Shown here piece by piece: positions 974 to 13,399 of a DNA stretch of 64,000 nt. The translations under genes and the position numbers were made by a program. Source of the stretch: Bacteroides rodentium JCM 16496 (GTDB taxonomy: Bacteria; Bacteroidota; Bacteroidia; Bacteroidales; Bacteroidaceae); contig NZ_BAKJ01000015.1 of the NCBI RefSeq assembly GCF_000614125.1, forward strand, positions 1 to 64,000, in the 5' to 3' direction. Below the pieces are notes generated by a model. It searched no databases. It was not told the origin of the DNA and was given only the letters and a program-made list of their open reading frames with translations. Every line of letters begins with the position of its first letter. The first letter of the stretch is position 1.

Positions 974-1924
974 ATGTTTTTTACAGCAATCAACCAGATG
1001 ATGACAGAAGGAGTCGACCTGACACTCGTCATCCGTAAAGCGAACGGACAAATGGCGGTATCCGTACTGCCGAAGTCAAACGGGCTGAAAGACGAAGCCC
1101 AGAACCACATTATCCCGTTGACCCTCAAGGGAGTTCCGCAGGAACTGGATACCGGATTCCTGCAAGCCGTCGCCCGGCCGGTGCAGAAAGCCACGGGACT
1201 GATCACCAACATGGCGCAGTTCGAGGCACAGACGGAAAAGGCCGCTTCCGAGAGCAAGGCGGCGAAGGATGCAAAGGCCAAGGAGACGAAAGAGGAGAAA
1301 GAGAAACGGGAGAAGTACGAGAAGCATCTCAAGAAAGCTGAGGAACTGATTGCCGCGGGAAACCATAAGGATGCAGTGACGGCTCTCGGACAGGCCCGAC
1401 TTTATGCCAAGCCGCAGGACCAGAAGAAGATTGACGAGATGCTGGAGCAGCAGAAAAAGGCCATGAACCGGGGAAGCCTGTTCGAGCTGATGGAAGAATC
1501 GCCTGCACCGCAACAGCTTCGGTCACAACTACCGGCAGCAACGGCACAACAGTTGCAGCCTGCACCGCACTGTCCACCGCAATCCCAGGCATCAGGACCG
1601 GCGGGCGGACAAATTCCTGACGGGCAGCAGCAGACAATGTGGCCGCCACAGCAGCCTGCGCAAAGGCCGGCACCGCATCAGGCTCCCCCACAGCCGCAAT
1701 ACGCCGGACAACGGCCGATGAGCCGCCAGCTCCCTCCACAGCCTGCATACGCGGAACAACAGATTTCATACCGGCAGGAACAGGAGCAAAATCCCGAAGA
1801 CCTCTATCCGTACTATCAGAGGGGACAGGAAGTCCCTACCTACCGCCCGGAAGATTATGAGGAATATCCCGATTTTCCGCAATCCATGTTAGAACCCAAT
1901 GTTTCACATTATCAAAGCATTTAA
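974..1924 (+). CDS. PRTRC system protein E
   Basis: This 316-residue protein fits PRTRC (ParB-related, ThiF-related cassette) protein E. The cassette occurs on plasmids and integrative elements, and its biochemical role is unknown. Residues 1-95 form the conserved domain, beginning MFFTAINQMMTEG. A Lys/Glu/Ala-rich helical stretch follows at about 95-130, then a TPR-like helical pair at about 115-160 (KAEELIAAGNHKDAVTAL). A long Pro/Gln-rich low-complexity tail from about 175 to 300 probably is disordered. The gene is followed five bases later by protein C, and the C, F, B, ThiF order supports the assignment. No enzymatic motif is visible. Confidence 0.8.
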   Translation: MFFTAINQMMTEGVDLTLVIRKANGQMAVSVLPKSNGLKDEAQNHIIPLTLKGVPQELDTGFLQAVARPVQKATGLITNMAQFEAQTEKAASESKAAKDAKAKETKEEKEKREKYEKHLKKAEELIAAGNHKDAVTALGQARLYAKPQDQKKIDEMLEQQKKAMNRGSLFELMEESPAPQQLRSQLPAATAQQLQPAPHCPPQSQASGPAGGQIPDGQQQTMWPPQQPAQRPAPHQAPPQPQYAGQRPMSRQLPPQPAYAEQQISYRQEQEQNPEDLYPYYQRGQEVPTYRPEDYEEYPDFPQSMLEPNVSHYQSI

Positions 1925-1928
1925 TATT

Positions 1929-2150
1929 ATGGCATTAGAAATCAAGGGAATGACACGTTCATTCACATTCAAGAAAGGCAACGGTATGGTCACACTCGAT
2001 GACCCGAACACGTCGGACAGCCCCGAAATGGTCATGAACTACTACTCGAACTTCTATCCGGAACTGACCACGGCAACGGTGCACGGGCCGGTCATCAAGG
2101 AAGACAAGGCGGTGTATGAATTCAAAACTACCATCGGGACAAAAGGATAA
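1929..2150 (+). CDS. PRTRC system protein C
   Basis: This 73-residue protein begins MALEIKGMTRSFTFKKGNG and matches the short PRTRC protein C family in length, position and sequence style. It is a small, single-domain, probably beta-rich cytoplasmic protein without catalytic motifs. The ATG at 1929 is chosen because it lies just after the protein E stop and gives the family's N-terminus. An upstream in-frame start overlapping protein E is less likely. Its role in the cassette is unknown. Confidence 0.8.
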   Translation: MALEIKGMTRSFTFKKGNGMVTLDDPNTSDSPEMVMNYYSNFYPELTTATVHGPVIKEDKAVYEFKTTIGTKG

Positions 2151-2155
2151 AAGCA

Positions 2156-3269
2156 ATGGGAAAGGACAATAAAAAACAGAAGAAATCATGTGTACCATTG
2201 GACGAACAGCAGGTGGAACGGCTTGCAAGGCTCATCATCGGACAGACCGTACGCAATATCCATTACAGTACGGACAGGAAAGAAAGGATTACGGCACCGG
2301 GGGGTGCCGTTCCTCTTTTCTGAACGCCACGTTTCAGCCAAAACCTTTGCCGAGTCTTGTCGTGGAAGATTCCGACGGGAAAAGGCATAATCTCATCACG
2401 CGGGACAACTACAGGTTCCTGCGTGACTCCTTCTTCAGATATGCCTGCCTAATGGAGAAGGAGGCGGTACATACCCCGGGCCGGACGTTCGGGGAAGGGA
2501 TCGCAAGGCTGCACGAGGAGATGGATGCCCTTGTCGGTGAGGGCTGAACGTCAATATCGAAGAGCAAGACGGACGGTTGCTGTTCAAGCTCTGGAAAGCC
2601 CATCATTGGGGAAAACTGACACTGTATTATTTCCCGATGAAATTCGTGGAGGCGCTCGGACCGGAATTGAGGCGTATCTCCATCACATTCATCCATGAAT
2701 TGATGAAGGCAAACGGAATACAGACCGTTCTGGACGAGGACGACACGGAATATGTCCTGACCTGGATTTCAGAGGAAGTACCGGAAGAGGCCCCGGAGGA
2801 AAGGAAAAAACGGCTGAGGCTCCTGCACTCCTACGAGAACGGCAGAATAAAGAGGCTGCTCCAAAGGGTGGAACGCAAGTGCTACTACAAGAACCTGCCG
2901 AAGGCACTTGACAGGTATAAAGCCCAGAACGACTACGAACGGTCGCTGGTCTCCGCCATGAAGGAGGGGTTACAATTCCTGTCACCGGAACGCGGCATCA
3001 TGGAATACTGCTACGATCCTTTTTATGAGGAGGAACCGGAGTTCCACCCCATGTACCTCTACCAACAGATACGTGTAATCTATGACAGTTACGATATGGT
3101 GACGGACTATCTCGTGAATTGTTACAATTCCCACAGCAGGGAGACCTACGACATCATACCGGTCACGACACTCGCCCTGTCTCCCGAAACGGGAGAGCTG
3201 TTCCACATGGATGACTACCCGGAACGCTTTTTCAAATGGGCGGACAAATTCATCAACATAATAATTTGA
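2156..3269 (+). CDS. PRTRC system protein F (two frameshifts)
   Basis: Three reading-frame pieces join into one protein of about 370 residues, consistent with PRTRC protein F. The first piece starts at ATG 2156 (MGKDNKKQKKSCVPLDEQQ) and stops at about 2321. The second runs in the next frame to 2547, and the third runs to 3269, ending FKWADKFINIII. Both shifts are -1. The first falls near a G6 run at 2299-2304, and the second at the GGG at 2541-2543, where a fourth G would restore EGLNVNIEE. The gene sits between proteins C and B, where F is expected. The shifts may be sequencing errors or real inactivation. Function is unknown. Confidence 0.65.
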
Positions 3270-3274
3270 ACACT

Positions 3275-3976
3275 ATGATGGAGACAAACGAACTTACAAG
3301 AACTTTGAAGACCCAGCTTATCCCCAAGGCGGCACTGATAGCCTACGTCTCGGAGGATGACAAGAATTTTTTTCTGGAGATACGGGACATAAACGATCGT
3401 GGAAACATGGCGGAAGGCAGGCCTATAACGCAGGAATTCATGAACGAGCTTGTAAAGGGATATTCGGAAAGGCATAGCAGCACGCCTTACGGAAAAGTAC
3501 CGTCCAACCTGATCTATTGCGATTCACGCAAGGGCAGCGAGCGGTATGTATGGTACAATCCCCCGCATAAACGGATGATGTTCTTCAGTCCGGGACTTGA
3601 AATAGAGAATGCGGAATACAACCTGCCGGGAGTCGTTTATGAGGCGGGAGAACACGGAATGAGGATATATGCCTACAAGGGTGACATGCCCGGCAAGGAC
3701 ACGCCGCTATATGCCGCGCCGTTCTTTAATGTGACCGGCTCCAGTGTATGCCTGGGTTCTGCCAATATAGACTTGCCCAAGGACCTGACATACGAAAGCC
3801 TGCTGCAATACTGGGAAAAGAAATTCTGGCTGACGGAGTTCTCCCATCTGGGAGGTGACGGAAACCCGACCAGATCCAACCTGGTTCTGGTAACGAAAGC
3901 AGCCAGGGACATGCCTTTCAATCTCGATGAACTGAAACCGTTGAACAATATGAAACTTAAAGACATACTGACATGA
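3275..3976 (+). CDS. PRTRC system protein B
   Basis: This 233-residue protein matches PRTRC protein B. The ATG at 3275 (MMETNELTRTLKTQLIPKAA) is preferred to an upstream in-frame start at 3236, which would overlap protein F. No signal peptide or membrane helix is visible. The gene overlaps the ThiF-family gene by four bases (ATGA), indicating translational coupling. The protein may work with the ThiF-like adenylating protein, but this is inferred only from gene order. Confidence 0.8.
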   Translation: MMETNELTRTLKTQLIPKAALIAYVSEDDKNFFLEIRDINDRGNMAEGRPITQEFMNELVKGYSERHSSTPYGKVPSNLIYCDSRKGSERYVWYNPPHKRMMFFSPGLEIENAEYNLPGVVYEAGEHGMRIYAYKGDMPGKDTPLYAAPFFNVTGSSVCLGSANIDLPKDLTYESLLQYWEKKFWLTEFSHLGGDGNPTRSNLVLVTKAARDMPFNLDELKPLNNMKLKDILT

Positions 3977-4760
3977 AAAGAGTACATTATACCGACAGTT
4001 ACCTGATGAGTCCGCAGCATCCGGTAACGGTAAACCTGATCGGAGCGGGAGGAACCGGGTCGCAGGTACTCACCTGCCTGGCACGTCTTGACACAGCTCT
4101 GAGGGGACTCGGACACCCGGGACTGTTTGTTACACTGTACGACCCTGACACCGTGACGGAAGCCAACATCGGTCGCCAGCTTTTCGGACCGTCCGACCTG
4201 GGACAGAACAAGGCACAATGCCTCGTCACCCGGATAAACAACTTTTTCGGGAATGACTGGAAGGCGCAAGCGGACATCTATCCGGCAGTATTGAAGGATA
4301 CCAGACGGGACAACCTGGCCAATATCACGATTACCTGTACCGACAACATCAAGTCACGGATTGACTTGTGGAATCTGTTGAAGCTTTGCCGCAACCGACA
4401 TACTGCACTTACGAGACCCCGCTGTACTGGATGGATTTCGGGAACACGCAGACCACGGGGCAAGTCGTGCTGGGTACCGTACCGAAGAAAATCAAACAGC
4501 CGGCGTCCAAACTCTATGAGACCGTCAATTCGCTGAAAGTCATCACCCGCATGGTGAAATACACGAGAGTGAAGGAAACCGATTCCGGTCCGAGCTGTTC
4601 GTTGGCTGAAGCGTTGGAAAAACAGGACCTGTTCATCAACTCCACACTGGCACAACTCGGATGCGGCATCCTATGGAAAATGTTCCGAAACGGAGTGATC
4701 GAGCATAACGGATTGTACCTGAATCTGGACACGATGAAAGTGAATTCGATAATCATATAG
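3973..4760 (+). CDS. PRTRC system ThiF-family protein (frameshifted)
   Basis: ThiF/MoeB/E1-type adenylating fold. The nucleotide-binding loop GAGGTGSQV lies at about residues 17-25, followed by the DPDTVTEANIGRQLF segment typical of the family, where the Asp and Arg contact ATP. Members activate the C-terminus of a partner protein; the partner here is unknown. The frame breaks at TTT 4385-4387. One more T would join NLLKL to LPQPTYCTYETPLYWMDFG, giving a protein of about 262 residues. No obvious programmed slippery heptamer is present. This is the last gene of the cassette and is followed by a hairpin terminator. Confidence 0.75.
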
Positions 4761-5081: not shown

Positions 5082-6290
5082 ATGACTAGTGTAAAAGTAA
5101 AATTCACTCCTTCATCCGTTATCCTTAAAGAGGGAACGGTTCATTATCAAATAATTCATCATTGTAAAGTACGGCATATCCGCACCGGTTACAAACTGTT
5201 TCCAAGTGAGTGGATTTCTGCTTCTAGTGAAATCAATGTCTCGGCAGGAAGTGGAGAAGGCCGAAAAAGCTATCTTGTTGCATTAAAAAATCAAATTGAT
5301 AAAGACCTTTTCCGAATAAAGAAATGCATTAACCGATTGAATCAGGAGAACAGCCCTTTCACAGTAGACCGTATAATAGAACTTTACACTACTCCAGAAG
5401 GAAATTCCACCTTTCTTCTATATGGAAAAGAACTGCTGGTTGAATTGAGGCAAATAGGTAAGGTGCGTACAGCTGGTACCTATCAGAGTGCCTTGAACAG
5501 CTTTGAACGTTACTTGAATAACCGTGGAGATGTCCCGTTGGACGAAGTGGATTCCAATCAGATGATAGCCTATGAAAGCTGGCTCAAAGGGAATGGCATC
5601 TGCCCGAATAGCTGTTCGTATTATATGCGTAACCTCAGGGCCATTTATAACCGGGCCGTGAATGAAGGGCTTGTTGTTCAACGAAATCCCTTCAAGCATG
5701 TCTATACCGGTATAGACAAAACGAAGAAACGGGCGGTTTCCCTCAGCGTGATTCGAAGAATACGGGATTTGGATCTTAATAAGAAGTCTCTCATTTTTGC
5801 CAGAGACATCTTTATGTTCAGTTTTTATACACGTGGAATGTCCTTTGTGGATATGGCATTCCTGAAAAAGAAAGACCTCCAGAATGGAATCCTGACCTAT
5901 CGGAGAAAAAAAACCGGTCAGCAATTGTTTATCAAATGGGAAAAGCCCATGCAGGAACTTATTGATAAATACAATACCTCTGAAACTTCCTACCTGCTAC
6001 CAATTATTCAGAACAATGGTGTGGACGAATGGCATCAATACCAAAATGAAGCGCACCGTATCAACAGAAATCTGAAACTGATTGGCAAACAAATAGGTTT
6101 GGGTATTCCACTTACCACCTATGTTGCCCGCCATGCTTGGGCCAGCATCGCCCAAAGTAAAAATGTTTCTTTGCCTGTCATCAGTGAGGCACTGGGGCAT
6201 GATTCGGAGCAAACTACCCGAATTTATCTTGCCTCTTTAGACACATCTATTGTAGACAAGGCAAATAGTCTCATTTTGATGTCTATATAA
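5082..6290 (+). CDS. Tyrosine recombinase adjacent to the invertible capsule promoter
   Basis: This 402-residue recombinase has an arm-type N-terminal domain (about 1-100), a SAM-like core-binding domain (about 110-210) and a C-terminal catalytic domain. Visible catalytic features are the Arg of FYTRGMSFVDM (about residue 250), the Arg-His pair at about 350-351 and the Tyr nucleophile at about 382 in TTRIYLASL. Bacteroides capsule loci commonly have such a recombinase next to upxY, where it inverts the local promoter. Here the gene ends 21-24 bases before the first inverted-repeat copy, so control of the switch at 6312-6585 is the natural inference. An element integrase is the alternative. 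Confidence 0.85.
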   Translation: MTSVKVKFTPSSVILKEGTVHYQIIHHCKVRHIRTGYKLFPSEWISASSEINVSAGSGEGRKSYLVALKNQIDKDLFRIKKCINRLNQENSPFTVDRIIELYTTPEGNSTFLLYGKELLVELRQIGKVRTAGTYQSALNSFERYLNNRGDVPLDEVDSNQMIAYESWLKGNGICPNSCSYYMRNLRAIYNRAVNEGLVVQRNPFKHVYTGIDKTKKRAVSLSVIRRIRDLDLNKKSLIFARDIFMFSFYTRGMSFVDMAFLKKKDLQNGILTYRRKKTGQQLFIKWEKPMQELIDKYNTSETSYLLPIIQNNGVDEWHQYQNEAHRINRNLKLIGKQIGLGIPLTTYVARHAWASIAQSKNVSLPVISEALGHDSEQTTRIYLASLDTSIVDKANSLILMSI

Positions 6291-6311
6291 ATAAATACCG
6301 AAAATGGTACA

Positions 6312-6335
6312 TATCTTCTTAAGAGAAGTACATCT
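6312..6335 (+). repeat. Recombinase site A (left inverted repeat)
   Basis: Positions 6314-6335 are the exact reverse complement of 6564-6585 (22 bp). The site contains the imperfect palindrome CTTCTTAAGAGAAG around CTTAAG, as expected for a tyrosine-recombinase crossover site. Confidence 0.9.
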
Positions 6336-6370
6336 ACATATAAAACTTGAAAGAGTAGCTACGGTCACTT

Positions 6371-6392
6371 TATCTTCTTAAGAGAAGTACAT
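6371..6392 (+). repeat. Recombinase site B (second left copy)
   Basis: This copy is identical to site A over 22 bases (compare 6312-6333) and lies in the same orientation 59 bases downstream. It is therefore also inverted relative to site C over 20 bp. Either A-C or B-C could recombine. A-B recombination would delete 59 bp. Confidence 0.85.
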
Positions 6393-6400
6393 TTTGAGTG

Positions 6401-6429
6401 CAAAAATACAAAAAAAATCTAAAAATCAA
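6401..6429 (-). promoter_or_regulatory. Invertible capsule promoter, OFF orientation as assembled
   Basis: On the minus strand, TTG at 6427-6429 is followed after 18 bases by TATTTTTG at 6401-6408, matching the Bacteroidota promoter pattern TTTG/TTG, about 19, TAnnTTTG. It lies inside both possible inversion units. In this orientation it reads left, toward the 3' end of the recombinase gene. A-C inversion would place the -7 box near 6491-6498 on the plus strand, and B-C inversion near 6550-6557. Either would read into upxY with a leader of roughly 200-250 bases. No equally good plus-strand promoter is visible before upxY. Confidence 0.75.
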
Positions 6430-6563
6430 GGTATAAAGTGAACTCTTTTTTTATTACTTATTTTTAAGAATCTTCAACATAATGTGTAAAATGAAAAACA
6501 ATCATCCCCATATATCCTCTAACATGACTTTGTTTATCAAGTTATTATCGCTTTATAACTAAA

Positions 6564-6585
6564 AGATGTACTTCTCTTAAGAAGA
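6564..6585 (-). repeat. Recombinase site C (right inverted repeat)
   Basis: Perfect 22-bp inverted copy of 6314-6335. The A-C interval encloses 228 bp containing the promoter at complement(6401..6429). Confidence 0.9.
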
Positions 6586-6692
6586 GTAGTATGTTTTAGT
6601 ATAAGTGAACACTTGCCTTTTAGAATAGCGATGCAAGGGATGATTAAAGGAATAAAAGATTCCTACTTTTGGAAAGTGTTTTGTAACTGCTT

Positions 6693-6715
6693 GATTATTA
6701 ACAAATAAAATAATC
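6693..6715 (+). promoter_or_regulatory. Small hairpin in the upxY leader
   Basis: GATTATT at 6693-6699 pairs with AATAATC at 6709-6715 around a 9-base loop, 40 bases before upxY. UpxY-type antiterminators are known to act through the leader of their own operon. This hairpin is a candidate leader element, though it is weak and AT-rich. Confidence 0.35.
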
Positions 6716-6755
6716 ATGCAGGATTGGTGATATTTGCCTGAACTAAAGTATATCA

Positions 6756-7292
6756 ATGGGAAATACTGAATACGCACAATGGTATGTCATGCGTGATTTG
6801 AAACGGTGCAATGCTAAAAAGCCGGCATACAAACAATTGCAAGAAGCGGGTGTAAAGGTATTTGTCCCCTTGAAATGGCAAATCATTTTGCAAAAGGGCA
6901 AAAAGGTGCGTGAGAAAGTTCCGGCCATTCAAGATTTGCTCTTTGTTTATGATTCCCGTCAGCATTTGGACTCCATTGTGGAAAGAACCAAAACGCTTCA
7001 ATACCGTTGGTTGCGGAATACGTTCCGGGAACCTATGACTGTGTCTGATTTGGAAATGGACAGATTCATACAAGCCGTCAGCAGTTCCGATTCCCCCAAA
7101 TATTATTTGCCGGAAGAGATAACCCCTCAGATGTGCGGACGCAAAATTCGGATTATAGGAGGTCCTCTCAATGGATATGAGGGCTGTTTGCTTAAAATAC
7201 GAGGCAGCAAGATAAAACGCTTGCTTGTCGAATTAAAGGGTTATCTCGCTGTTGGTGTGGAGGTTCTTCCTGAATATATTCAATTTGTCTGA
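6756..7292 (+). CDS. UpxY-family capsule transcription antiterminator
   Basis: This 178-residue NusG-like protein has an NGN-type domain at about residues 5-105 (starting near YAQWYVMRDLKR) and a KOW domain at about 125-175 (GRKIRIIGGPLNGYEG). UpxY proteins are encoded first in Bacteroides capsule operons and prevent premature termination in their own leader, so that the downstream genes are transcribed. It is the first gene after the invertible promoter. The usual partner UpxZ, which inhibits UpxY proteins of other loci, is not found downstream. The ATG at 6756 gives a normal family length. Confidence 0.9.
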   Translation: MGNTEYAQWYVMRDLKRCNAKKPAYKQLQEAGVKVFVPLKWQIILQKGKKVREKVPAIQDLLFVYDSRQHLDSIVERTKTLQYRWLRNTFREPMTVSDLEMDRFIQAVSSSDSPKYYLPEEITPQMCGRKIRIIGGPLNGYEGCLLKIRGSKIKRLLVELKGYLAVGVEVLPEYIQFV

Positions 7293-7302
7293 TACGATAT
7301 TT

Positions 7303-8448
7303 ATGACTGTTATTTTGAATGTAATGGACAATCCTAGGGCCTTTTGGGTTGTCAATTCCTTGTTTGTATTCGCCTTGAGCGTATTTTGTGCCGGCGTCTT
7401 GATTCCACAAATCTTGTTGATATCATTTCGTAAGCGTCTGTTTGATGTGCCTGATGAACGGAAGATCCATCAGGGGGTAGTACCCCGTTTAGGAGGGATA
7501 GCCTTCAAACCGGTTGTCTTTTTCTCGGTGGCACTTGCTTTGGGACTCAGTATGTTGTTGGGATACAGTCAGCTTCTTGGTAATATCGGCAGTGAAAGCC
7601 GCCCGTTGGCATTCGGCTTCTGTACCATTATGATGCTTTATCTGGTTGGGATGGCTGATGACCTGATTGGTATCCGTTACCGTGCCAAGTTCGCCATACA
7701 GATTATTTGCGGATTACTGGTTATTGCAGGCGGGCTGTGGATCAATAACCTGCACGGTTTGCTGTTTATTCACGCTCTTCCTGAATGGATTGGATACCCC
7801 ATTACCGTATTCGCTGTGGTATTTATTATCAATGCCATCAATCTGATAGATGGGATAGACGGATTGGCTTCCGGATTGTGTGGAGTGGCTATGCTTTTTT
7901 ATGGATTGGTGTTTTTTATAATAGGCGAATACATTTATGCCCTGCTCGCTTTTGCGACACTTGGAGTGCTCGTTCCCTTTTTCTATTATAACGTATTTGG
8001 AGATCCTGCCAAAAAGAACAAAATATTCATGGGTGATACCGGTAGCTTGACGATTGGTATGATGACTTGCATTTTAAGTCTGAAACTGCTTGACGGGTTT
8101 CCGGTAAATCACTCTATGCAACAGCCTAATGCTTTCTTTTTAGCCTATTCACCGCTTATCATTCCCTGTTTTGATGTGGTACGGGTTTATTTGCACCGTG
8201 TGCGAAACGGAAAGAATCCCTTTTTGCCAGATAAGAACCATATCCATCACAAAATGCTTGCTGTTGGCATGAGACAGCGTACAGTTATGATTGCCATTGT
8301 ACTGGTATCTGTCTGTTTTACACTGTGCAATATTCTGCTTTCACGTTATATAAATGTAACCTTGCTTTTAATACTGGACATCTTTATATGGACCTTGGGT
8401 AATCTATGGTTAACCCGTAGAATCCATATTACTCATTCGAAACTATAG
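7303..8448 (+). CDS. WecA/MraY-family undecaprenyl-phosphate glycosyl-1-phosphate transferase
   Basis: A polytopic inner-membrane enzyme of about 381 residues. It should transfer a sugar-1-phosphate (typically GlcNAc-1-P or a derivative) from a UDP-sugar to undecaprenyl phosphate, starting the capsule repeat unit. Family motifs are MADDLIG (Mg/substrate aspartates), NAINLIDGIDGLASG and the C-terminal HIHH motif in KNHIHHKML. About ten hydrophobic helices are visible. The ATG at 7303 avoids the 41-bp overlap with upxY that an upstream TTG would create; ATG 7324 is also possible. No other initiating transferase is seen in the locus. Confidence 0.88.
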   Translation: MTVILNVMDNPRAFWVVNSLFVFALSVFCAGVLIPQILLISFRKRLFDVPDERKIHQGVVPRLGGIAFKPVVFFSVALALGLSMLLGYSQLLGNIGSESRPLAFGFCTIMMLYLVGMADDLIGIRYRAKFAIQIICGLLVIAGGLWINNLHGLLFIHALPEWIGYPITVFAVVFIINAINLIDGIDGLASGLCGVAMLFYGLVFFIIGEYIYALLAFATLGVLVPFFYYNVFGDPAKKNKIFMGDTGSLTIGMMTCILSLKLLDGFPVNHSMQQPNAFFLAYSPLIIPCFDVVRVYLHRVRNGKNPFLPDKNHIHHKMLAVGMRQRTVMIAIVLVSVCFTLCNILLSRYINVTLLLILDIFIWTLGNLWLTRRIHITHSKL

Positions 8449-8460
8449 TTTTATATCAAT

Positions 8461-9256
8461 ATGAATTTTTGCAAATTTAATTGGGGCAATATTACTCCTG
8501 TTTTTAGGAGCTTGCTCAACTTCAAAAGAAGTCACTTATTTTCAAGATTTACGTCCGGGCGAAAGCGAATTGGCGCTAACTGCTCCGGTAGAGATTAAGA
8601 TTCAACCGAAAGACAAATTGTCTATTTTAGTCAACAGCCAGGATTTGCGCCTGACCAACCTGTTTAACTTGCCAATTGTTTCTCAACAGATCGGCATGGA
8701 GGGCTCTTCCGGTTCTAATCGTGGTGTGTCTGGTTATACGGTAGATTCCAAAGGGAACATTGACTTTCCCGTGTTGGGAGAAATTCACATAGCCGGTATG
8801 ACCCGTGAAGAGGTGGCTGCCTATATTAAGAAAGAGCTACAGTCGCATGATTTGATTAAAGACCCTGTCGTTACGGTGGAATATATGAATCTCAGCGTAG
8901 CCGTAATGGGTGAAGTGAACAATCCCGGCCGTTTTAGTATCGACAAGGATAACCTTACAATCCTGGATGCCTTAAGCCAGGCGGGAGACCTCACTATCTA
9001 CGGAAAGCGGGAAAAGGTATTGGTGTTGCGTCAAGAAGAAGGAAAACAACGGGTTTATGGAGTCAATCTTTGCTCTGCCGAGCATCTTTACACTTCGCCT
9101 GCTTATTATCTGCAACAGAATGATGTGGTATATGTGGAGCCTAATGCTACCAAAGCCCGTCAGTCTACCGTAAACGGGAACAATGTGCGCAGCACCTCTT
9201 TCTGGATTTCCCTGGCTTCTTTATTGACCTCCATCGCTGTACTTATCGCTAAATAA
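8461..9256 (+). CDS. Polysaccharide export lipoprotein, Wza-like (5' frameshift)
   Basis: Outer-membrane polysaccharide export protein with a poly-export/SLBB architecture. The reading frame open through 9256 contains a lipoprotein signal, LIGAILLLFLGAC followed by STSKEV, but no ATG of its own. The only good ATG (8461) is two bases short of that frame, and AAAA instead of AA at 8464-8465 would give MKIFANLIGA. The poly-export domain begins near IKIQPKDKLSI, and SLBB-type sequence follows (VAVMGEVNNPGRFSI). The C-terminus is a hydrophobic segment. It should work with the downstream Wzc-like protein in capsule export. Confidence 0.8.
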
Positions 9257-9265
9257 AAAAGAGAA

Positions 9266-11655
9266 ATGGCTACTATTCAGAATAAATCAACAGTACAAAA
9301 TACGCAGGATTTCATTACCATACAGGATTTATTTTACCTCTGTCTCAACAAATGGCACTGGTTTGCCATTTCATTGGCCTTATGTTTGGGGGGTGCGACC
9401 TTTTATCTGTTAAGAACCCCATCGGTATATGTCAGAACTGCCTCTATTTTGATTAAGGACGATTCCAAAGGGAAATCTTCTTCTACGGATATGGAGTCTT
9501 TTTCCGATCTGGGACTGTTCACGACCAACACCAACGTTTATAACGAGATGGGAACTTTGAAGTCTCCCGACATCATGCGTGAAGTGGTGTCTCGATTGCA
9601 TTTGGAAATGAATTATCAGACAGACGGACGTTTTCATAAACAGACTGTGTATGGAAACCAACTTCCTGTCCAGGTGGTGATTCCTAATCTTTCCGAGAAT
9701 GAATCCGCAACTTTCGAACTGCATCTGGCAAAGGATGGTGCAGTGGAATTATCCTCTTTTACACGGAATGGAACAGAAATAGAAAATGATGGTTTTGTGA
9801 AAGGCAATTTGAATGACAGTATTCAAAGCCCCCTAGGCCCTATTGTCGTTATTCCATCGGCTGCCTATTCAGATAAAACGGTAAGCACAATTTATGTAAC
9901 CCGCCAGTCTTTGTCTGCGGCATCAGCTGGCTGTTCTGCTCGCTTGAATATATCCCAGAACGATGAGAAGTCCAATATCATCACGTTGTCTTTCCAGGAT
10001 GTGTCCACCCAACGGGCGGAAGATGTGCTCAATACCCTTATATCCGTTTACAATGAGAACTGGGTAAGGGACAAGAATCAGATAGCGGTTAGTACATCCA
10101 TGTTCATCAATGAGCGTTTGGGTGTGATTGAGGGTGAGCTTGGCAATGTGGATGATGATATATCTTCTTTCAAAAGTGAGCATTTGCTGCCGGATGTACA
10201 GGCGGCGGCAAATATGTATATGACTCAAGCCAATGAAGCCAATGCTGCAATTCGTGAATTGAACAACCAGGCATATATGGCCCGATACATAAAGAACTAT
10301 TTGACCAATGAAAACAATAAACATCAGTTACTCCCTGCCAATTCCGGCATTGAAAATGCAAGCCTTGCCACACAACTGAATGAATATAATACCAAGTTAT
10401 TGGAGCGCAATAGCTTGGTGTCTCACAGTAGTGTCAAGAACCCCTTAGTCAGGGAAATGGACAAGTCGTTGGATGATATGCGAAGCGCTTTGATCACTTC
10501 CATTGACAACCAAATGGTAGCTTTGCGTGCACAAATCAGAAGTTTGGAGGCCATTGGGGGACAGGCTACTTCGCAGATTGCCTCCAACCCGAAGCAATCC
10601 AAATACCTGCTTAGCGTGGAACGCCAACAAAAGGTGAAGGAGTCACTTTACCTATATCTGTTACAAAAACGTGAGGAGAACGAGCTTTCTCAGGCATTTA
10701 CGGCCTACAATACCCGTATTATAACAAAGCCTGGAGGAAGCATGATTCCTACCGCTCCCGTAAAGAAGAACATTTTCCTGGTGGCTTTTGCTTGGGTATA
10801 TTGATACCGGTAGTCATTGTGTTCATGCGTGAAAACATGAATACCCGTGTTCGTGGAAGAAAAGACCTGGAGGGCTTGAGCGTTCCTTTTATCGGAGAGA
10901 TTCCTTTGTCTATACGTGGTAAGAAAAGAGTAAAATCACATGAGGCACATACCATTGTGGTTAAAGAAGGAAGCCGTGATATTATGAATGAGGCTTTTCG
11001 TGTCTTGCGTACCAATCTGGAATTCATGATTGGCAAAGATCAATCCTCCAATGTGATTGTAGTTACCTCGTTCAATCCGGGCAGTGGAAAATCGTTCTTG
11101 ACCATGAACATAGCCATGAGTCTTGCCATTAAAAATAAAAAAGTATTGGTTATTGACGGCGACCTTCGCCATGCCTCTGCTTCAGCTTATATCCATTCGC
11201 CCAAAATTGGTTTGAGTAATTATTTAGGAGGACAAATCGACAAACTTTCGGATATTATTGTTACGGACGAGCAGCACCCTTCATTCAGTTTCATCCCTGT
11301 CGGCACTATCCCCCCCAATCCGACCGAACTGTTGTTTGATGACCGGTTACGGGAAGCAATCGATACTTTAAAGCAACAATATGATATTGTATTGATTGAC
11401 TGTCCGCCGGTTGAACTGGTAGCCGATACGCAAATCATAGAGAAATTGGCCGATCGTACGATTTTTGTGGTACGTGCAGGCCTGTTGGAGCGCAGCATGC
11501 TTCCAGAGTTGGAAAATATTTACCGAGAAAAGAAGTACAAGAATATGTCTGTAATTCTCAATGGAACGGAAGGATCTGGCGGACGGTACGGTTATCAGTA
11601 TGGTTACAAGTACGGCTACAATTATGGATATGCCGGATATACGAAGGAAGAGTAA
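9266..11655 (+). CDS. Wzc-like chain-length determinant/tyrosine autokinase (frameshifted)
   Basis: The N-terminal half (9266 to about 10804) has a Wzz domain with a membrane segment near residues 33-53 and a long coiled-coil periplasmic region. The C-terminal half (to 11655) is a BY-kinase with Walker A in FNPGSGKSF, Walker A' in VLVIDGDLRH and Walker B in IVLIDCPP. The tail holds nine tyrosines in a YGY repeat pattern, the usual autophosphorylation cluster. The frame breaks at GGG 10794-10796, and a fourth G gives continuous VAFAWGILIPVVIVFMREN. The intact protein would be about 796 residues, normal for the family. It controls chain length and export with Wza. A C7 run at 11310-11316 is in frame. 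Confidence 0.85.
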
Positions 11656-11663
11656 ACGGAAAG

Positions 11664-12377
11664 ATGTGGCCTTTCAGAAAGCGTATCAGCCTTGCTGACA
11701 GTGGAATCTTTCGGGAATTCACCGACTGGCACTGTCATCTGCTCCCCGGAGTGGATGACGGCGTGCAGACAATGGAAGAGAGTCTGCAAATCCTATCCCT
11801 CTATGAACAGTTGGGTGTAAAAGATGTTTGGTTGACTCCGCACATCATGGAGGATATGCCAAATACGACATCCATTCTGAAAGCCCGTTTTGAGGAATTG
11901 AAAACTGTTTATCAAGGAAACATCGCACTGCATCTTGCAGCTGAGAATATGCTCGATAACCTCTTCGAGGAACGCTTGGCGAAGAGTGACCTGCTTCCGT
12001 TGAGCAAAAACGGGAAGCACCTATTAGTAGAGACTTCCTACTTCAATCCTCCGATAGGATTGAACAACATCCTACTCCGCATCAAGTCGAAAGGATATAC
12101 ACCTGTTCTGGCGCATCCTGAACGGTATAATTACATGGAGGAGAGCGACTACCGTCAATTGAAAGGATTGAGTGTAAAATTTCAACTTAATCTCTTCTCT
12201 TTGGTCGGTGCATACGGAACAGAAGTAAGGAAGAAAGCCAGATGGCTGATGAAAAAAGGTTTCTATGACTTGGCGGGCAGCGACACACACGGTTTCGCTG
12301 TCTTGGAGTCAACTATATACAAACAAAAATTACCACAAACCGGCTATGAACAGATGTTCAAAGCCGATCTATGGTAA
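11664..12377 (+). CDS. CpsB/CapC-type PHP tyrosine-protein phosphatase
   Basis: A 237-residue PHP-fold metal-dependent phosphatase. Metal-ligand motifs are DWHCHLLPGVDDG near residue 22, HPERYNY near 150 and GSDTHG near 212. CpsB-type enzymes dephosphorylate the BY-kinase tyrosine tail and so modulate capsule polymer length. It follows the Wzc-like gene by eight bases, the expected partner order. No signal peptide is present, so it is cytoplasmic. Confidence 0.88.
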   Translation: MWPFRKRISLADSGIFREFTDWHCHLLPGVDDGVQTMEESLQILSLYEQLGVKDVWLTPHIMEDMPNTTSILKARFEELKTVYQGNIALHLAAENMLDNLFEERLAKSDLLPLSKNGKHLLVETSYFNPPIGLNNILLRIKSKGYTPVLAHPERYNYMEESDYRQLKGLSVKFQLNLFSLVGAYGTEVRKKARWLMKKGFYDLAGSDTHGFAVLESTIYKQKLPQTGYEQMFKADLW

Positions 12378-13081: not shown

Positions 13082-13399
13082 ATGCCTACAGTCGTTGCAC
13101 GCTTAGAACCAAGTAAGAAAAATGCCGGGTATGGTACGGTTTATTATCGAATCTACAAGGGGCACAATCGGAGGATGGAATTTTCTTCTCGTCTTCACAT
13201 ATCTGTTATTTCTTGGGATGAAGCCATGCGGACAGTAAAAGGAGATAATCCCGAAGCTTGTCGCTTCCGTACCCAAATCCGGACAGACCTTGAACTTTTG
13301 CGTAAAATCATTACGGAAGATGATGCCGGTCTTCTGACTATGGGCGACATAATACATATTTTCAAACGCCAAAGAACGGTTTTTAATCATCCAAAATAG
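13082..13399 (+). pseudogene. Truncated tyrosine recombinase (N-terminal fragment)
   Basis: A 105-residue ORF begins MPTVVARLEPSKKNAGYGTVY. It resembles the arm-type DNA-binding and SAM-like start of Bacteroides recombinases such as the one at 5082-6290. It stops before any catalytic domain, so no Arg/His/Tyr catalytic residues are encoded and a normal protein would be about four times longer. It sits inside the capsule operon next to an inverted repeat pair. It probably is the relic of an older recombinase or locus boundary. A translated small DNA-binding protein cannot be excluded. Confidence 0.6.

Follow-up and report, generated by a model that had tools for sequence, protein, structure and literature searches.

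The locus examined here raises the question of how many states a capsule promoter can adopt when it is accompanied by three recombinase sites instead of two, and whether such an arrangement can last. It is part of the window, by which we mean the whole stretch of 64,000 nucleotides that was analysed. The preliminary description had read it as an invertible capsule promoter caught in the OFF orientation. We will show that the promoter orientation, the recombinase, the sites and the relatives all agree with this reading, the invertibility itself being predicted from the sequence. That the locus is an invertible capsule promoter, whatever the role of the additional site, we consider very likely. 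The more complete reading is that of a locally driven invertible UpxY-capsule promoter whose three sites make it an OFF, strong-ON and weak-ON switch. This we regard as probable, with a confidence that is lowered because the retention of the three sites rests on two lineages.

A repeat search finds an inverted pair at 6314-6335 and 6564-6585 (22 nt, arms 100% complementary), together with a perfect direct repeat of 22 nt at 6312-6333 and 6371-6392, spaced by 59 bp. Both the perfect inverted repeats and the third copy in the same direction as the left one, as originally described, are thus present. We call the sites A, B and C. Site A, the outer and extra one, lies on the forward strand at 6308-6330 in its 23-bp form, TACATATCTT-CTT-AAGAGAAGTA (22-bp repeat 6314-6335), and site B, the standard promoter-proximal one, on the same strand at 6367-6389 (22-bp repeat 6373-6394). 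Site C, on the capsule side, has the opposite orientation and lies at 6569-6591 (22-bp repeat 6564-6585); the arm limits of A and C were set by hand. B and C also form an inverted pair, of 23 nt and 96% identity. The spacer is 167 bp for B-C and 228 bp for A-C, so that both pairs enclose a segment within the range of ca 130-300 bp that was looked for, and the gap between the arms of A and B is 37 bp. On the basis of the repeat search and the enumeration of states given below, the core invertible segment, from B to C, can be placed at 6393-6565. One of its ends carries a duplicated site, as in the Tsr19/IVp-I system discussed below.

The 20-mer core of the sites occurs exactly three times in the window at up to 3 mismatches and in none of 100 shuffles. 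In the whole assembly (148 contigs, 4.88 Mb, 85.85% complete) it also occurs exactly three times at up to 2 mismatches, which means that no further copy is found among these contigs. The matches of the outer arms, scored by hand, are 8/10 for A, 6/10 for B and 9/10 for C. An automatic dyad score gives 7/9, 6/9 (with a shifted centre) and 8/9, respectively, all inside the range of the family. B is the weakest in the hand scoring, and with its poor outer arm A-C could be the preferred pair.

The promoter is located inside the segment, next to one of the sites. It is of the Bacteroides type and lies on the minus strand at 6401-6429, with the -7 box TATTTTTG at 6401-6408, TTG at 6427-6429 and 18 nt between the two. 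The distance between the box and the AAGAG core is 16 bp for B and 75 bp for A. It is the sole TAnnTTTG box of the segment, no rightward one being present between the sites, and the earlier statement that the only good promoter reads left, away from upxY, is therefore correct. No intrinsic terminator was found in 6200-6800.

The apparently intact gene for a tyrosine recombinase of 402 amino acids (5082-6290, forward strand) ends just upstream of site A, as had been noted. It matches the Pfam families Phage_int_SAM_5 (E 2.9e-18) and Phage_integrase (E 2.8e-9), while a match to Arm-DNA-bind_5 (E 2.1e-4) is just short of the cut-off. In an alignment of 10 sequences, 3 of them without the N-terminal part, R251, K277, R350, H351, H373 and Y382 are invariant; these we take to be the catalytic residues of the tyrosine-recombinase family. 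Among solved sequences there are just two matches at E 0.001, and a XerC-like recombinase is the better of them (E 2.4e-4). Judged from its sequence and position, the protein is likely the invertase of the adjoining switch.

On the other side of the sites, a capsule leader (6586-6755, forward strand) runs from C to upxY (6756-7292, forward strand), a NusG-family antiterminator gene (Pfam NusG, E 1.6e-5) that is the first of the operon. The start of the capsule operon proper (7303-12377, forward strand) encodes, according to Pfam, a family 4 glycosyl transferase, a Wza-like polysaccharide export protein, Wzz/GNVR and CpsB/CapC. The order is thus that of an UpxY-regulated capsule locus, with a NusG-family gene first and the transferase, export and Wzz genes after it. 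Within the operon, the Wzz/GNVR reading frame (9266-10804) overlaps one in a different frame (10792-11655), in which an ATP-binding-like GSGKS motif can be recognised by eye. The two together (9266-11655) may be a split or frameshifted co-polymerase/kinase.

We now turn our attention to related loci. For the survey, up to 900 bp of sequence following a related recombinase was taken from each of the 80 named loci listed by one scan, from 30 loci and 60 further matches among those listed by a second, and from the window. From these 171 regions, 4 shorter than 160 bp and 20 duplicates were removed, which leaves 147 unique ones; two close relatives of the window, L044 and L045, are merged into L015 in this count. 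An inverted pair of sites is found in 89 of the 147 regions, compared to 0 of 735 first-order Markov simulations, and the other 58 have no qualifying pair. The spacer is 133-200 bp in 76 of the 89 and 150-190 bp in 64, a range that leaves out L109, where a run of N lies between the arms, and L098, with another kind of repeat and a spacer of 65. For arms with a recognisable AAGAG core, the distance to the core is 13-18 bp for 57 of 61 leftward -7 boxes near the left site and 13-17 bp for 11 of 15 rightward boxes near the right site, these being counts of boxes and not of loci. Both promoter orientations occur among the relatives, and most promoters point to the recombinase. When TTG is also required, the 87 loci divide into 29 with a left promoter, 2 with a right one, 1 with both and 55 without a scored promoter. 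UpxY relatives are encoded downstream at 9 of the 62 named loci for which the downstream sequence exceeds 1 kb, L044 and L045 included (tblastn, by which distant UpxY proteins may be missed).

In view of this spacing and of the promoter distance, 16 bp for B against 75 bp for A, the pair that conforms to the family is B-C, and A is an addition to it. The presence of three sites is confirmed, with a refinement of their roles, since it is B and not A that sits at the promoter-proximal position of the relatives.

Extra sites are not restricted to the window. An additional arm match is seen in 15 of the 89 regions, where 0.44 would be expected. Eight of these were set aside by eye, L026, L061, L067, L134, L164 and L167 for a different centre and L062 and L150 as noise-like. 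Inspection leaves 7 of 89 regions with a third site that has the same centre, namely the window, L015, L022, L036, L172, L180 and L181, a proportion which suggests that multi-site loci are not very rare. Counting the window and L015 as one lineage, these represent 6 lineages, or 5 if the orthologues L180 and L181 are joined. The extra copy begins 21-66 bp from the start of its neighbour in every one of the 7, lying towards the recombinase in 4 and away from it in 3. The -7 box faces the doubled end in 5 of them (window, L015, L022, L036 and L181), with the inner copy coming first at 6-12 bp; in the other two, L172 and L180, the box closest to a site is directed at the single one.

L180 and L181 (from genomes G175 and G088), in each of which a -7 box is directed away from the recombinase, have the third site at opposite ends, left in L180 and right in L181, which is what an inversion of the A x C type would give. 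They were rejected as evidence of inversion, as the DNA between the sites is, by eye, not recognisably reverse complementary. A separate observation concerns L134, where two complete site pairs (64/250 and 380/566) lie in tandem behind one recombinase, the two differing in centre sequence and each having a separate -7 box.

The closest relatives come from a scan of GTDB genomes with one genome per species, which gave at least 80 loci. L045 belongs to an isolate of Bacteroides bouchesdurhonensis (on a 5.26-Mb contig) and L044 to a contig of a rabbit metagenome-assembled genome (MAG). Each is ca 3% diverged from the window. The two differ from one another by 9 substitutions in ca 5.4 kb and, being nearly identical, are counted as one further lineage, which gives two lineages together with the window. 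The rabbit MAG is named as an uncultured Acetatifactor, a name at odds with its content, and the contig is probably mis-binned.

All three sites are kept in L045 and L044, with the same layout and the same OFF orientation. This is the outcome of the comparison of relatives, for site B and for promoter orientation, that the preliminary description had proposed. Both relatives have one substitution in B, just outside its 10-bp half-site. Between the window and L045, the cores of A and C differ at 0/20 positions each and that of B at 1, in total 1/60, compared to 13/82 in the DNA beside A and B. The latter consists of 7/39 (18%) in the DNA between the cores of A and B (6334-6372), which is free of features on inspection, and 6/43 from B to the -33 region. 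For comparison, the recombinase gene has 65 substitutions in 1209 positions and the leader 3 in 170 (2 relative to L044). The site cores have been conserved, in contrast to the drifting DNA around A and B. The corresponding binomial P is ca 0.03 for A alone and 0.009 for A and B together, values that are post hoc, as the comparison was chosen with the data in view.

The orientation is OFF in 3 of 3 records of the locus (two lineages). Among 158 genomes of the genus the locus is present in 2, those of the window and of B. bouchesdurhonensis, both OFF. Among 60 relatives there is one full-length match, that of B. bouchesdurhonensis (L045), in the same orientation, and 7 others that are short and partial. 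The opposite orientation was found in neither of these two sets. As to other origins of the site, neither the exact 20-mer core nor the one exact inverted-junction pattern searched for occurs in viral contigs. A plasmid, viral or dispersed site was rejected, with no megablast match to plasmids, no match in viral contigs and no other copy in the genome of the window.

It is now possible to consider which states the three sites would allow. With their short dyad arms and 3-bp centre, the sites would be the places where the adjacent tyrosine recombinase exchanges strands. Enumeration of the possible strand exchanges yields two OFF and two ON arrangements related by inversion, four in all, and two deletion products, which bears out the suggestion of more than two possible states. 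Inversion between B and C (ca 170 bp) would switch the promoter between the OFF form that was sequenced and an ON form with a leader of ca 192 nt that contains one site. Inversion between A and C would turn over a segment 59 bp longer, to give a second ON form, with a two-site leader of ca 251 nt, and a matching second OFF form. Both lengths assume that transcription starts 7 nt past the -7 box, and they reproduce the two ON configurations with leaders 59 bases apart that had been predicted. At its 5′ end, the ON transcript can form a hairpin of −8.3 kcal mol−1 from the leader sequence of site C, to which the second site contributes another, weaker hairpin of −3.4 kcal mol−1. By analogy with Tsr19/IVp-I of B. 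fragilis, the form with the two-site leader would be the weaker ON.

Deletion between A and B, which is possible on paper and would reduce the locus to a normal two-site switch, is probably rare, the sites being too close to pair easily. The preliminary description had suggested that the switch could erode in this manner. This is not borne out by the relatives, as A, B and the intervening DNA persist in the three records (two lineages) despite the 18% divergence of the DNA between them, and the A-B deletion is not seen in either lineage carrying the locus. In all 7 same-centre cases the gap between the copies is far below the shortest spacer of the survey, 133 bp, and DNA stiffness probably hinders the synapsis of sites so close together. 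A wider proposal, which we advance only tentatively, is that close duplicate sites constitute a stable multi-level switch (OFF, strong ON and weak ON, without erosion) that has arisen several times in the Bacteroidales. Here, the distance of 21-66 bp, being shorter than the shortest usable spacer of 133 bp, would block deletion between the direct copies through the stiffness of the DNA, and pairing of either close copy with the distant inverted site would still be possible.

Several other explanations of the third site have to be weighed. The locus could be an ordinary two-site switch of B and C, in which A is an inert duplicate from an earlier rearrangement. The spacing of B-C and its promoter distance are indeed standard, and 82 of the 89 pair-bearing regions do without a same-centre extra site. 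The core of A, however, is unchanged relative to L045 (0/20, against 13/82 beside A and B; P ca 0.03, post hoc), and the outer arm of A is, by hand, better than that of B. We see this as a possibility that should be taken seriously, without expecting it to be the correct one. The same sites can also be read the other way around, with A-C as the working pair and B as a decaying site, in which case the promoter would always have a spare site on one side. A-C is a perfect 22-bp pair, the outer arm of B is the poorest as scored by hand, and B has the one substitution in L045 and L044. This substitution falls outside the 10-bp half-site, however, and A-C has a spacing, 228 bp, that is long for the family, with A 75 bp from the box instead of 13-18 bp, so that a decaying B appears unlikely.

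A could furthermore be an accessory site (enhancer, decoy or arm-type) that is bound and not cut. The arm-binding-like N-terminal domain of the recombinase would fit such a function, as would the position of the same-centre extra sites, 21-66 bp from a core site in 7 of 7 cases. On the other hand, the core of A is complete and shares its 3-bp centre with B and C, and the 82 of 89 regions without such a copy also speak against this improbable alternative. Finally, the third site might have been created in the assembly, which is incomplete and consists of 148 contigs, from a mixture of orientations. The B. bouchesdurhonensis isolate, on its 5.26-Mb contig, and the rabbit contig have the same layout at ca 3% divergence from the window, and an artefact was rejected on this ground, its probability being close to nil. 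The reading that we prefer is accordingly still that of three sites serving an OFF, strong-ON and weak-ON switch.

Some of these properties have precedents. The B. fragilis invertible promoter IVp-I has duplicated repeats at one of its ends in strain NCTC 9343, and in YCH46 at both; the accessible text of that report states the effect of the duplication on inversion as not known (PMC3090145, 2010). In NCTC 9343, transcription is described as inversely correlated with how many repeats separate the promoter from the genes (PMC4747536, 2016, citing Chatzidaki-Livanis et al. 2008). For B. fragilis, the literature thus already contains a Tsr19-driven capsule promoter with additional sites at one end or at both, and an effect of site number on transcription. 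Tsr19 (BF2766 in YCH46) is likewise a tyrosine recombinase beside an invertible promoter of a polysaccharide operon, that of the large capsule/EPS. According to the available descriptions, IVp-I is OFF in three genome sequences, and ON mutants have one, two or three repeats before the genes. The operon genes named in these descriptions are WbaP-, Wza- and Wzc-like, upxY not being among them, while the operon of the window begins with upxY. Tsr19 is also described as acting on a distant promoter, whereas the genome of the window (assembly 85.85% complete) has no other copy of the site. A published primer sequence of the B. fragilis Tsr19 locus was not found in a first set of 4 genomes or in the 158 genomes of the genus, and the likeness to Tsr19 is one of description. 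By this analogy, the best reading of the locus is that of an invertible capsule promoter with multiple sites, of the Tsr19/IVp-I kind, in which the effect of site number would be carried over from the recombinase of another species.

Two further systems are similar in part. The one in PMC12118408 has the same order of invertase, inverted repeats, upxY and capsule operon. It differs in having two 20-bp repeats, of sequence GTTACTTCTTAGGTAACGGA, around 289-290 bp, and one repeat sequence common to several loci; a third repeat is not mentioned in the portion of the description at hand. The Mpi-controlled capsule promoters of B. fragilis are, as summarised in PMC4747536 and PMC12632263, likewise inverted between ON and OFF ahead of UpxY/UpxZ capsule operons. 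Mpi is, however, a serine recombinase that acts globally on different repeats, while the window has a tyrosine recombinase that would act locally. Capsule switching has been linked to the phage sensitivity of gut Bacteroides, as stated in the part of PMC12118408 available. If extra sites tune the ON level, plain counts of ON and OFF reads for invertible promoters would miss a quantitative layer. The value of the present locus is that it offers a compact, upxY-linked case common to a named isolate, as one of several recurrent examples.

The surroundings of the locus offer some minor observations. Upstream of the recombinase and the capsule locus, 974-4760 contains genes of a PRTRC system (PRTRC_E, Prok-E2_D and ThiF by Pfam), among which the ThiF reading frame (3973-4536) is followed by an overlapping one in another frame (4368-4760), possibly a frameshift. 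Past the first capsule genes, a reading frame of 105 amino acids (13082-13399) matches Arm-DNA-bind_5 alone (E 8.3e-7) and may represent part of a second tyrosine recombinase.
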